Source: Fusobacterium varium
GTDB lineage: Bacteria; Fusobacteriota; Fusobacteriia; Fusobacteriales; Fusobacteriaceae
DNA length: 64,000 bases
Direction: 5' to 3'
Assembly (NCBI GenBank): GCA_900637705.1
Contig: LR134390.1
Coordinates: 992,001-1,056,000, forward strand
A program made the position numbers and the translations under genes. Under the pieces are notes generated by a model. It worked only from the letters and a program-made list of their open reading frames with translations. It did no database searches and had not been told where the DNA came from. How positions within the stretch are numbered: the first letter of the stretch is position 1; each line of letters begins with the position of its first letter. Positions 2,533 to 13,986 of the stretch are shown here, piece by piece.

Positions 2533-2574
2533 AAAAGAGAGTCTAAATTTTAAATTTTTGACTCTCTTTTTTAT
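2533..2574. terminator. Bidirectional terminator between bioD and the MATE gene
   Basis: An 11-bp stem, AAAAGAGAGTC (2533-2543) with GACTCTCTTTT (2560-2570), is followed by T-rich sequence on the plus strand and flanked by A residues on the other side. It sits between two convergent genes and abuts the MATE stop codon. Confidence 0.8.
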
Positions 2575-3928
2575 TAGACAATTTCCTCTTTTAAATCTGT
2601 GACTTGATAATATTTTTTCCATTTGTGGCGATAAACTATAAAGATAATTATAGCCTCTATTATCCACTGCAGAGCTGTTATTTTCCAGAAATATGTAACA
2701 GAACTTCTCTTTAAATAAATATAATAATACACGAGGGGAAGCCGTATTATCCAGTTTGTGAATAAGACTATTTTAAATGGAGTTTTACTATCCCCAGTTC
2801 CCTTTAAAGCTCCCCCTAATACCATGGAAATAGCTATAGGTATTTGTTCAATAGAAGCTAGCATAAGACAGGCAGTTCCAAGGGCTATAACTTCAGTTTC
2901 ACTACTTTTAATGAAGAGAGAAATAAGTTTTTCAGGAAAAATGAGAAATATTACAGAAAATAGTCCCATGATTCCAGAAGCAAGATATATGGAATAATTT
3001 ATATATATTTTAGCTTTTTCATAATCTTTTTGACCTATACAATATCCAGTAAGAGAAGTACAAGCTATAGCGAATCCCCAGCCAGGCATAAAAGAGATGC
3101 TTTCAATGGTAATAGCTATCTGGTTGGAAGCAAAAGACAGACTTCCAAGTGTCATTATAACAGCTACATTTATTAGTTTATTTATACTAAAGGCTCCTTC
3201 TTGTAATGAAGAAGGGATAGTTAGTCTTACCAATTCTTTAAAATATTCCTTATTAAATGGGGCTAATGGACTTAGTTTAAAAGGTATTTTCTTTAATTGG
3301 CTTAAAGTAAACAAGAGTCCACATACATTTCCAGTAACAGTAGCAATAGCACCTCCTACAACCCCTAATTCTGGAGCACCCAATTTACCAAAAATAAGAA
3401 TGTAATCAAGAGATAAGTTTACTACATTTACAATTATAGCTGTAAAAAGAGGGGTTTTAGTATTTTTACATCCTCTAAATATTCCATTAAATATATTTGT
3501 TGTCATATTACATATTACAGCAAAAGAACAGATTCGCATATATTTAGTAGCAAGTGATAGAATATCTTTTTCAGCTCCTACAATTGTTAGGATTTTTTCG
3601 GGAAAACAAAAAATATTCCCCACATTAAAACAGCAAATATAAGACCAAGCCTTAAAGCAATATCAGAAGTTAATCTTGCTTTTTCATAATTTTTTCCACC
3701 AATTGCTCTTGAAATTATTGAGGTAATAGAGATTGATAAACCCATGGCAATAATTATATTTGTAAATGTGTACATTACTTCTGAACTAAGACCAACTGCA
3801 GAAACTCCCAACTGACCACTATGTTTTCCAACCATTATAGTGTCAAGTACCCATATCATCATGTAAAGAATCATTTCCCCAACTGCTGGAAGAGCTAATT
3901 TTAAAATTTCCAGTATTATTTTTAACAT
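2574..3928 (-). pseudogene. MATE family multidrug/sodium antiporter, frameshifted
   Basis: Two overlapping frames make one MATE transporter. The first (3928 to 3587) opens with LALPAVGEMILYMMIWVLDT and VGKHSGQLGVSAVGLS, the typical first two membrane helices; the second (from about 3610 to 2574) continues with ILTIVGAEKDIL and the remaining helices, including NGIFRGCKNTKTPL and LGGALKGTGDSKTP. One added base in the A6 (3593-3598) or the neighbouring T6 run restores a 451-residue protein, the usual MATE length with about 12 membrane segments. MATE proteins export cationic drugs or metabolites using Na+ or H+. The start ATG follows GAGGAG and overlaps the stop of hflX (ATGTTAA), indicating translational coupling. 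Substrate unknown. Confidence 0.85.
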
Positions 3929-5720
3929 ATATTCTCCTCAATCATGAATTTTTTACACTTGTTGTATACTTCATCATTGACTATGGCAGTTATTTTTATA
4001 CCTTCTCCCTCATATTCTTCTTCTTGAATGATGGAATTTCTATGAAGAAAAGCACTCATAGAAGTATCACTGTAAGGTATTAAATAAGTACATTTTCTAG
4101 TAGTTTGTGGTAAGAGAGCCACAATCATTTGTAAAATTCATTAATATTTTTATTTTCTTTAGCACTAATTTCTATCATTTGATATTTGCTAAATTTTTCT
4201 TTTATAGTAATAAGTTGCTCTGGAGAAGCCATTTCAAATTTATTTAATGCAAGAAAAGAAGGTTTATCAAGAGCATTTAACTCCTCTAATACTTTTTCTA
4301 CAGCAGAAATTTGCTCTGAAGCAGTTTCACTTGATACATCAACAACATGTATTATTAAGTCAGAAAAACTTACTTCTTCAAGAGTAGATTTAAAAGCTTC
4401 TACTAAATCATGAGGAAGTTTTCTTACAAATCCTACTGTATCAGTAAGAGAAGCTACTCTTTTATCAGGAAGAACTATTGCTCTAGTAGTAATATCCAAA
4501 GTTGCGAAAAGCATATTTTCGGCAAAAACAGCTTCTTTTTTAGAAGTGTTATCAGCTGCATACATATCAACAAGAAGATTTCTGAGAGTAGATTTTCCAA
4601 CATTGGTATATCCAACAAGAGATATTTTAGGTATACCAGATTCATCTCTTTTCTCCCTCTGAGTTATTCTTGTTTTCCTTATTTTTTCAAGTTCCTGTTT
4701 TAAATCATAAATAGTTTCTCTTATTCTTCTTTTGTCAATTTCAAGTTTTTTTTCTCCAGGCCCTTTAGTACCTACACCACCACCAGTTCTAGACATAGTA
4801 GAACCAAATCCAAGAAGTCGGCTACTTCTATATTTTAATTGAGCAAGCTCTACTTGAATTTTTGCTTCTCTTGTTCTAGCCCTTGTAGCAAATATTTCTA
4901 AAATAAGAACAGTTCTGTCAATAACTTTACAGCTTGTGAGTTCTTCTAAGTTTCTTACTTGTAATCCACTGAGTTCTTCATCAAAAATAATAAGATTAGC
5001 TTTTTTTAATTGTTTAAAAACAGCAAGTTCCTGTGCTTTTCCAGGTCCAATAAAATAGCATGAATCTATTTTAGTTTTCTTTTGAAAAAATTTAGCTACT
5101 ACTTTAACATTGCATGCCCTAGCTAATTCAGCTAACTCATCAAGGCTTTCATTATCATCTAGCCCTACAAGAATTGCATATTCATCATCATTTTCAATAA
5201 TTTCTCTCTTTTTTAGAAAACTTTCTATTTCTTCAATTTTAGAAAGAAAGTCATAATTTACAATCTGTTCTACAGATAGAGGACCTACAATTTCATGAGA
5301 AAGATCATTTCCATCTACACTACAGAATCCGATACTCATTCCTGTTATAGAATCTTCATTTATTCCAATAGCAACTATACAGTCTAATTTTAATTTTGTG
5401 AGAGCTGATATATCTATATTGGATAAATTTGAACTACCACTAGGGTGTGTATGTATAACTCTAGTTCCACTCAATCTTTTTTCCTGTACATTCAAAAAAG
5501 GAAGCTGTACACTACTGCTATCACCAATAGATATTTCTGTAACATTTCCCTTTCTATCAATCGCAATGTTGATTTCTCTATTTATTCTACTGCTCACTGA
5601 AGCTATTAGAGTAAGCATTTCTGGTTCTATTATTTTATTTTTTTCAACTGTTATATCATGAAGAGAATCTAACTCATTTAAAATGAAATCTTTGATTCCC
5701 TCTGTATTACCTTTTATCAT
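3922..5720 (-). pseudogene. hflX: GTPase HflX with N-terminal JAMM-like domain, frameshifted near the C-terminus
   Basis: HflX is a ribosome-associated GTPase that splits stalled or hibernating ribosomes. The family core is clear: HflX N-domain (FIGPGKAQEL near residue 224), glycine-rich RTGGGVGTKGPGEKK (311-325), G1 loop GYTNVGKST (370-378) and DTVGFVRKLPH. The frame stops after NINEFYK at 4125; a second frame (about 4128 to 3922) supplies the expected C-terminal domain (MIVALLPQTTRKC...LIPYSDTS). One base in the T4 or A3 of ATTTTACAAATG restores 599 residues. Unusually, residues 1-170 are an extra domain with HTHPSGSSNLSNID (90-103), a perfect JAMM pattern H-x-H-x7-S-x2-D. Start ATG at 5720 follows GGAGTG. 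It overlaps the MATE start. Confidence 0.88.
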
Positions 5721-12360: not shown

Positions 12361-13986
12361 TTATATTTTATTTGGTTTTTCAATGAGAATATTTTTTTCA
12401 TTTTCATAAGTAACAAATCCAGGCTTACTTCCCTTTGGTTTGTTTATATATCTTTTTTTGGTATAATCTACACTTATTTTATCTCCAGTGGAGCTTTTAG
12501 AAAAATATGCTGCTACTTCAGCACCTTTTAAAAGCATTTCTTCTGTAATCTCATTAGCTTTTATAATGACATGGGAACCTGGAATATTTTTAGAATGCAG
12601 CCAGATATCTTCTTTAGAGGCAACTTTAAAAGTCAAATTATCATTTTCAATATTATTTCTTCCATATAATATTTTGAAACCTTCAAATTCAAGCACTCCA
12701 TATCCGATTTCTTTTATCTGCTTTTTTCTATTTCCTTTTTTCTGTTGTAGTTTTATATATCCTTGAGATATTAATTCCTCTTGAATAAGTTTTAGATTGT
12801 CAGTATTTGAACTGTTATCAATGAAAAGTTTAATACTGTTCAGATAATTTAATTCTTCATTAATTTCTATAAATCTTCTCTTATTTGCTTCCATACCTCT
12901 TTTTAATTTATTATATTTTTTATAAAGTTTTTCCAGATTTTCTTGTGGAGTTATTTGTGGATCAAGAGGTATAGAAATCTCCTTATTATTATAAAAATCA
13001 TAAGTTGTAAGAGAAGTCATACCTCTTTTAAGAGTATATATAGATGCTGCAAGGATATCTCCCTGCTCCTTGTATTTTATAAAATCTTGTTTTTCTAATG
13101 CTTCATCTTCTAAAAGAGAAAGTATTCTCATATTTTTTTTCACTTTTTTATTTATGTTATCAAGAAGCTGAGTTTTTAATGTATCAAAACTACTTGATAA
13201 ATTTTCTGAATTTATATAGAAATTAATAGCTTCTCTAAAACTTTTAAAAGAAAGCACATCATCATATTCCTTTCCTTTAGGAAGGATATTGAGCACACTT
13301 CCAAGAACTATTCTACCTTTATTCAGAAAAATCTTTGGTTGAGATTGAGCATTTAATAACTGAGTAAAACTATTAAAATCAGTTATATTTTGAACAGTTA
13401 ATTTACCAAGTCCTTCAATATTTTTTAAAAGAGAATTTTCATTTTTAAATTTATTAAATTCGTCTTCTGTAATATTTAAAGGAGAAATTTTTTCTTCAAT
13501 AATAGGCTGTTCATATTTTAATCCAGGAAAAAGAGCTCTTAAACGATTTTCTTCAAGAGAAAAACGTTTAAGTAAATCAATTATTTTGTCATTTTCATCA
13601 GCAAAAATGAAATTTGAATATTTCCCCATTATTTCAAAGTATATAGAATAATTCTTTATTTCACCAAGTTCATTTATTTTAGCAAACTTAAAGCACAATA
13701 TTCTATCAAATCTTAACTGTTGAATATCAGTAAGCATAGCATTGAGCAGATGTTTTTTCATATTTGCTGCAAGACCAGCAGTATTTTCCAGGACACTTTC
13801 TTTAGAATCTGCAATATAGCAGATTGGGAAAGAAGGATTGCAGGAAAATATAAGTTCAGTTTTTCCAAAATAAATAGAAAGAGAAACTTCAGTATTTTTT
13901 GTTATTTTATTGATTTTTTTTCCTAAAAGGTTTTCTTTCAATTCATCTTTTATTTTGTTCAATGATATACCATCAATATAAAACAT
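12361..13986 (-). CDS. rqcH: Ribosome quality-control protein RqcH (NFACT family)
   Basis: A 541-residue NFACT protein, the bacterial counterpart of Rqc2. It binds obstructed 50S subunits carrying peptidyl-tRNA and recruits tRNA-Ala to add alanine tails that mark the nascent chain for degradation. The NFACT-N domain starts at residue 1 (MFYIDGISLNKIKDEL), a long coiled-coil middle follows (about 250-390), and the NFACT-R domain has DIWLHSKNIPGSHVIIKA near residue 460. Length is slightly short of the Firmicute homologue (about 570). Older annotations call it fibronectin-binding protein. It lies just downstream of the marR/feoA gene on the same strand, 20 bases away. ATG follows AGGAG. Confidence 0.92.
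   Translation of the reverse strand: MFYIDGISLNKIKDELKENLLGKKINKITKNTEVSLSIYFGKTELIFSCNPSFPICYIADSKESVLENTAGLAANMKKHLLNAMLTDIQQLRFDRILCFKFAKINELGEIKNYSIYFEIMGKYSNFIFADENDKIIDLLKRFSLEENRLRALFPGLKYEQPIIEEKISPLNITEDEFNKFKNENSLLKNIEGLGKLTVQNITDFNSFTQLLNAQSQPKIFLNKGRIVLGSVLNILPKGKEYDDVLSFKSFREAINFYINSENLSSSFDTLKTQLLDNINKKVKKNMRILSLLEDEALEKQDFIKYKEQGDILAASIYTLKRGMTSLTTYDFYNNKEISIPLDPQITPQENLEKLYKKYNKLKRGMEANKRRFIEINEELNYLNSIKLFIDNSSNTDNLKLIQEELISQGYIKLQQKKGNRKKQIKEIGYGVLEFEGFKILYGRNNIENDNLTFKVASKEDIWLHSKNIPGSHVIIKANEITEEMLLKGAEVAAYFSKSSTGDKISVDYTKKRYINKPKGSKPGFVTYENEKNILIEKPNKI

Follow-up and report, generated by a model that had tools for sequence, protein, structure and literature searches.

The window, a 64,000-nucleotide stretch of Fusobacterium varium DNA, carries an hflX gene on the minus strand that starts at an ATG (5720-5718, with M1 counted from 5720) and stops at 4127-4125. 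The HflX core, consisting of ND1, a helical middle region and the GTPase domain, occupies 4134-5156 (minus strand) and is recognized by TIGR03156, PF13167, PF16360 and PF01926, with the GTPase part at about 4628-4239. The TIGR03156 (HflX) score is 432.6 bits against a curated cut-off of 216.75, which identifies the protein as HflX. The matches to PF13167, PF16360 and PF01926 (ND1, middle region and GTPase) start at residue 194 in the numbering of a GTG-started frame, and the first ~185 residues of HflX carried no annotation. Based on profile, fold and conservation, we assign residues 1-172 (5205-5720, minus strand) to a putative JAMM/MPN+ domain with a JAB core at about residues 28-160. In both AlphaFold2 models, a low-confidence linker (residues ~173-185) lies between this domain and ND1.

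The 3' end of the gene is disrupted, a feature that the initial annotation missed. In an alignment with four relatives (L004, L005, L006 and L010), the window copy has one base fewer beside a T run near 4133, and the frameshift with its premature TGA at 4127-4125 (4125-4133, minus strand) truncates the C-terminal domain. The open frames of the relatives are ~598-637 aa long with an intact C-terminus. Similarity to their C-terminal end places the out-of-frame domain at 3922-4132 (minus strand): over 500 bases around it, identity to the intact end of the three nearest relatives is 89-91%. The JAMM and GTPase domains are intact in the window copy; an intact C-terminal domain, which most HflX proteins have and the family model does not require, is lacking. 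The adjoining MATE-type transporter gene (2574-3928, minus strand) is also split, into two overlapping frames of 349 and 113 aa, which makes a homopolymer sequencing error in hflX plausible. We conclude that the frameshift may be a sequencing error, and that it could also be a real lesion.

Motif and predicted fold of the N-terminal domain

A JAMM/MPN+ residue set, E49, H90-T-H92-P, S100 and D103, lies entirely within the first ~172 residues of HflX and is read from the minus strand throughout. E49 (5574-5576), the putative catalytic glutamate, begins the first core strand (strand 50-56 in the second model, whose numbering is one higher). H90-T91-H92 (5445-5453, with H90 at 5453-5451 and H92 at 5447-5445) ends the predicted strand 87-93, is followed directly by P93, and aligns with the HTHP of AMSH-LP, the histidines being putative zinc ligands. 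S100 (5421-5423) is the motif serine, and D103 (5412-5414), the putative third zinc ligand, starts helix 102-110 in both models. The initial annotation had read H-x-H-x7-S-x2-D at residues 90-103 together with Glu49, and re-deriving the residues from the coordinates gave exactly these. The H-x-H-x7-S-x2-D pattern occurs once among the window's 83 stop-to-stop frames of at least 100 aa, and its mean count after shuffling was 0.0.

Conservation of the motif was examined in three sets of proteins. Across 71 diverse sequences (31-95% identity to the query, residue numbering one higher), invariance is limited to ten columns, among which are E49, H90, T91, H92, P93, S100 and D103. Of 181 long HflX proteins collected, with a few loci counted twice, 169 keep the full E-H-H-S-D set; this is the fairer figure for loss, because members of the 71-sequence set were chosen from intact sequences. 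The motif is also intact in 60 of 72 proteins from a sample of 398 genomes that was not picked by motif. Conservation in the 71 aligned sequences and in 169 of the 181 led us to reject a chance motif. E49, H90, H92 and D103, the residues whose retention the initial annotation had proposed to check, are thus kept rather than lost in most long HflX proteins.

Neither the glutamate nor the serine is a metal ligand in the JAMM family, so that their invariance here argues for catalysis over a structural metal. The JAMM serine is catalytic rather than metal-binding. The glutamate likewise serves catalysis and not metal binding, according to PMC300881. Since conservation of both residues equals that of the ligands, the domain is best read as an active hydrolase, and the purely structural RadC-like domain that the initial annotation gave as an alternative is disfavoured.

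AlphaFold2 modelled the domain with a pLDDT of 82.1 from 21 sequences and 84.6 from 71 sequences, and the predicted placement of Glu, HxH and Asp is JAMM-like. In VIA-align, PfJAMM1 ranked first (Z 7.9, rmsd 3.3, 109 aligned; Z values below 8 often reflect a shared arrangement) and RadC second. Nearly every listed row was a JAB/MPN protein, and the model also matches AfJAMM, Rpn11, AMSH and CSN5. Foldseek E-values were only ~1e-3. The fold call leans on the consistency of the list and on a PDB profile search with the wider alignment, in which the top 12 matches were all to AMSH, AMSH-LP or Sst2 (human AMSH and AMSH-LP, yeast Sst2; E 0.011-0.1), with IHTHP..LS.VD aligned column by column in those printed. 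Ribosomal protein S19, matched in the PDB by the narrow 21-sequence profile, was set aside as a chance result, as the wider alignment gave AMSH-type proteins instead.

Curated families were reached weakly. Pfam Prok-JAB (PF14464) matches 46 of the 71 members (E up to 1, best 9.2e-5) and does not match the window protein itself. Pfam RadC (PF04002) weakly matches 30 of the 71, and the window's domain misses its gathering cut-off with 13.7 against 22.1 bits. In a profile-profile alignment with RadC from related genomes, HTHPSG...S..D lies over HNHPSG...S..D (hhalign probability 70%). The PADLOC JAB model matches residues 91-113 of the window protein below threshold (E 0.005), and this protein stays below every JAB-type threshold of Pfam, NCBIfam and PADLOC. 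The PHROGs matches were weak, some of them to tail proteins, and none was significant. Taken together, the models and searches support a predicted JAB/MPN fold related to RadC, in agreement with the initial annotation, whose call of a complete JAMM metalloprotease motif is borne out by profile, fold and conservation, its activity being a prediction. The domain probably represents an unannotated JAB family that the curated families do not cover and that is found only fused to HflX.

The HflX domain has E-xn-H-T-H-P-x6-S-x2-D in common with the JAMM/MPN+ metalloproteases PfJAMM1, AfJAMM, AMSH-LP, Sst2, Rpn11 and CSN5, and its predicted fold places Glu, HxH and Asp on the same elements. In contrast to these families, it scores below thresholds, is fused to a ribosome GTPase, and has its own N-terminal helix, an invariant Gly before the helix and C-terminal helices. 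The metal motif of RadC (PF04002) is in register with that of the domain, but RadC has HNHP where HflX has HTHP, and a separate RadC gene is present in the same genome as long HflX. RadC-like DinG carries a JAMM domain N-terminal to a helicase (PMC11981726), a parallel architecture of JAMM and NTP-driven enzyme in which the partner is a helicase instead of a ribosome GTPase. Most of the sampled Fusobacteriales genomes also have RadC/JAB matches in frames of ~810-905 aa, a length that agrees with RadC-like DinG; these proteins are possibly RadC-like DinG helicases, another NTPase-JAMM fusion.

Distribution and history of the fusion

Fusobacteriales HflX proteins come in a long form of ~600 aa and a short form of ~410-450 aa. 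The domain is encoded in 25 of 60 related genomes, the F. varium genome itself aside; most Fusobacteriaceae carry the JAMM-HflX fusion, and many genomes of one other Fusobacteriales family have neither form of HflX. A scan of 84,980 named species returned 207 relatives, of which 80 were kept, from Fusobacteriaceae, Clostridium and allied Clostridia; the motif is covered by one of the patterns with which these 80 loci were found. An even sampling of the Clostridium phylum gave matches in 74 of 398 genomes, almost always within a frame as long as HflX; the two weakest matches were rejected as one RadC and one unrelated protein, and about 18% of the genomes sampled carry the domain. Centring a second phylum-level sample on another genome yielded the same genome group and no further phylum. 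RadC itself and stray weak matches aside, the domain was met solely N-terminal to HflX. Phage records gave zero matches to it, and a plasmid collection gave two matching records, both Fusobacterium: NZ_CP077186.1 (153555-154115) and NZ_CP084075.1 (1095560-1096114), the latter, at 2.1 Mb, probably a chromosome filed as a plasmid. These records add Fusobacterium animalis and F. vincentii to the carriers of the domain, at 50% identity.

On a midpoint-rooted tree of the HflX core, short HflX proteins are interspersed among long ones, and the long forms of Fusobacteria and Clostridium join with 100/100 support. The 12 of 181 proteins without the full motif group into two clades in which the histidine pair has been lost. 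Eleven of them have a joint replacement of both histidines (F/R or Y/T); L157, the twelfth, retains one aligned histidine and nothing else of the site. The tree fits an old fusion, after which the whole domain was lost several times and inactivated twice. Several gains would be an alternative history. Complete loss in many HflX lineages shows that the JAMM domain is dispensable. Single genomes vary as well. Clostridium magnum has one long HflX (613 aa, with JAMM) and one short (424 aa), a natural pair to test the domain, and another genome has two HflX genes, both short. Eight loci (L145-L151 and L153) encode divergent long HflX proteins in frames of 535-660 aa, with the JAMM residues intact and the rest of the domain little alike.

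The retention of the domain without histidines in two clades implies that part of its function needs no catalysis, and it bears on a second reading, in which a non-catalytic JAB module binds RNA, protein or metal and acts in the manner of the extension of mycobacterial HflX. That extension of 39-58 residues disorders the rRNA helices H68-H71 and helps splitting, and the same review mentions extended HflX in some Clostridium without naming the domain (PMC12493154). Like long HflX, the mycobacterial protein has an addition N-terminal to ND1; the mycobacterial one acts structurally and has no reported enzyme motif (PMC12493154), whereas that of long HflX has ~172 residues and a predicted JAMM fold. 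Glu, Ser and the three ligands are strict in 169 of 181 and 71 of 71 sequences, which would be unexpected for a scaffold, and we regard a non-catalytic module as unlikely.

We also compared gene neighbourhoods. The flanks of the 80 loci hold no gene common to most Fusobacterium and Clostridium loci, and thus no partner is indicated. Clostridium loci have in common hypoxanthine phosphoribosyltransferase-like, PBP1A-like and YunB-like genes, named from reading the sequences. In the window, an RqcH/NFACT-like gene of ribosome quality control (12361-13986, minus strand) lies ~7 kb from hflX. The distance is 7-30 kb in several Fusobacteriaceae genomes and the genes are far apart in others; RqcH (NFACT_N) is present in every one of the 61 Fusobacteriales in the sample, whether or not they have long HflX, which makes the co-occurrence uninformative. 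The flanks also bear on a third reading, a true deubiquitinase-like enzyme that strips a ubiquitin-like modifier from ribosomal substrates. By sequence profile and by fold, the solved proteins nearest to the domain are ubiquitin/SAMP isopeptidases, and the term deubiquitinase-like in the initial annotation holds for the fold. Neither an E1-like nor a ubiquitin-like gene recurs beside hflX in the 80 loci, however, and the structural match is limited to the JAB core of larger deubiquitinases. Ubiquitin chemistry is unlikely for this domain, and to a true modifier-stripping enzyme we give hardly any credence.

A candidate hydrolase on the ribosome

From motif and models together, we conclude that the N-terminal domain of long HflX is probably a catalytically competent JAMM/MPN+ zinc hydrolase, of a JAB family found only fused to HflX. 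Its zinc binding, catalysis, location on the ribosome and the nature of its substrate are what we infer. HflX is a GTPase that binds 50S and splits stalled or vacant ribosomes. ND1, its first subdomain, sits at helix 69 of 23S rRNA on the intersubunit face, and the contact of ND1 with H69 is described in PMC12493154. A short linker connects the JAMM domain straight to ND1, so the domain is expected near this face. Held there, it could cleave a bound molecule at a peptide or isopeptide bond; candidate substrates would be a nascent chain on the split 50S, a hibernation or stalling factor (for example long hibernation-promoting factor) or a ribosomal protein. The peptidase activity on ribosome-bound chains that the initial annotation had suggested may be of this kind. 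We tentatively propose, as a possibility somewhat short of even, a GTPase-coupled ribosomal metalloprotease, in which HflX would split a stalled or hibernating ribosome and the JAMM domain would cut a factor or nascent chain at the subunit interface.

The JAMM domain could instead be an autoprotease or regulator of HflX itself that, for example, trims the linker to ND1 or gates GTPase activity. It is always in cis with HflX and is followed by the low-confidence linker. JAMM enzymes normally act in trans, however, and the alignment revealed no conserved cleavage-like motif in the linker, so that we consider action on HflX itself very improbable.

HflX is nearly universal, and work on it concerns ribosome rescue, hibernation and macrolide-lincosamide resistance. 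In the literature library searched, no paper links HflX with JAMM, JAB, MPN or RadC; an earlier mention of the link, for example in subscription papers, preprints or AlphaFold-based annotation resources, is possible. A large HflX branch in Clostridia and Fusobacteria appears to bear a second enzyme, unannotated in the libraries used. Related species with intact, degenerate or domain-less HflX offer a natural contrast, through which the question can be tested directly. Should the domain be active, one protein would couple ribosome splitting to proteolysis, a parallel to ATP-driven unfolding and JAMM cleavage in the proteasome lid. Our analysis suggests that Fusobacteria and many Clostridia couple the splitting of stalled ribosomes to a cut on the ribosome, and GTPase-coupled cleavage, if true, would be a step of bacterial ribosome quality control that is new to description.
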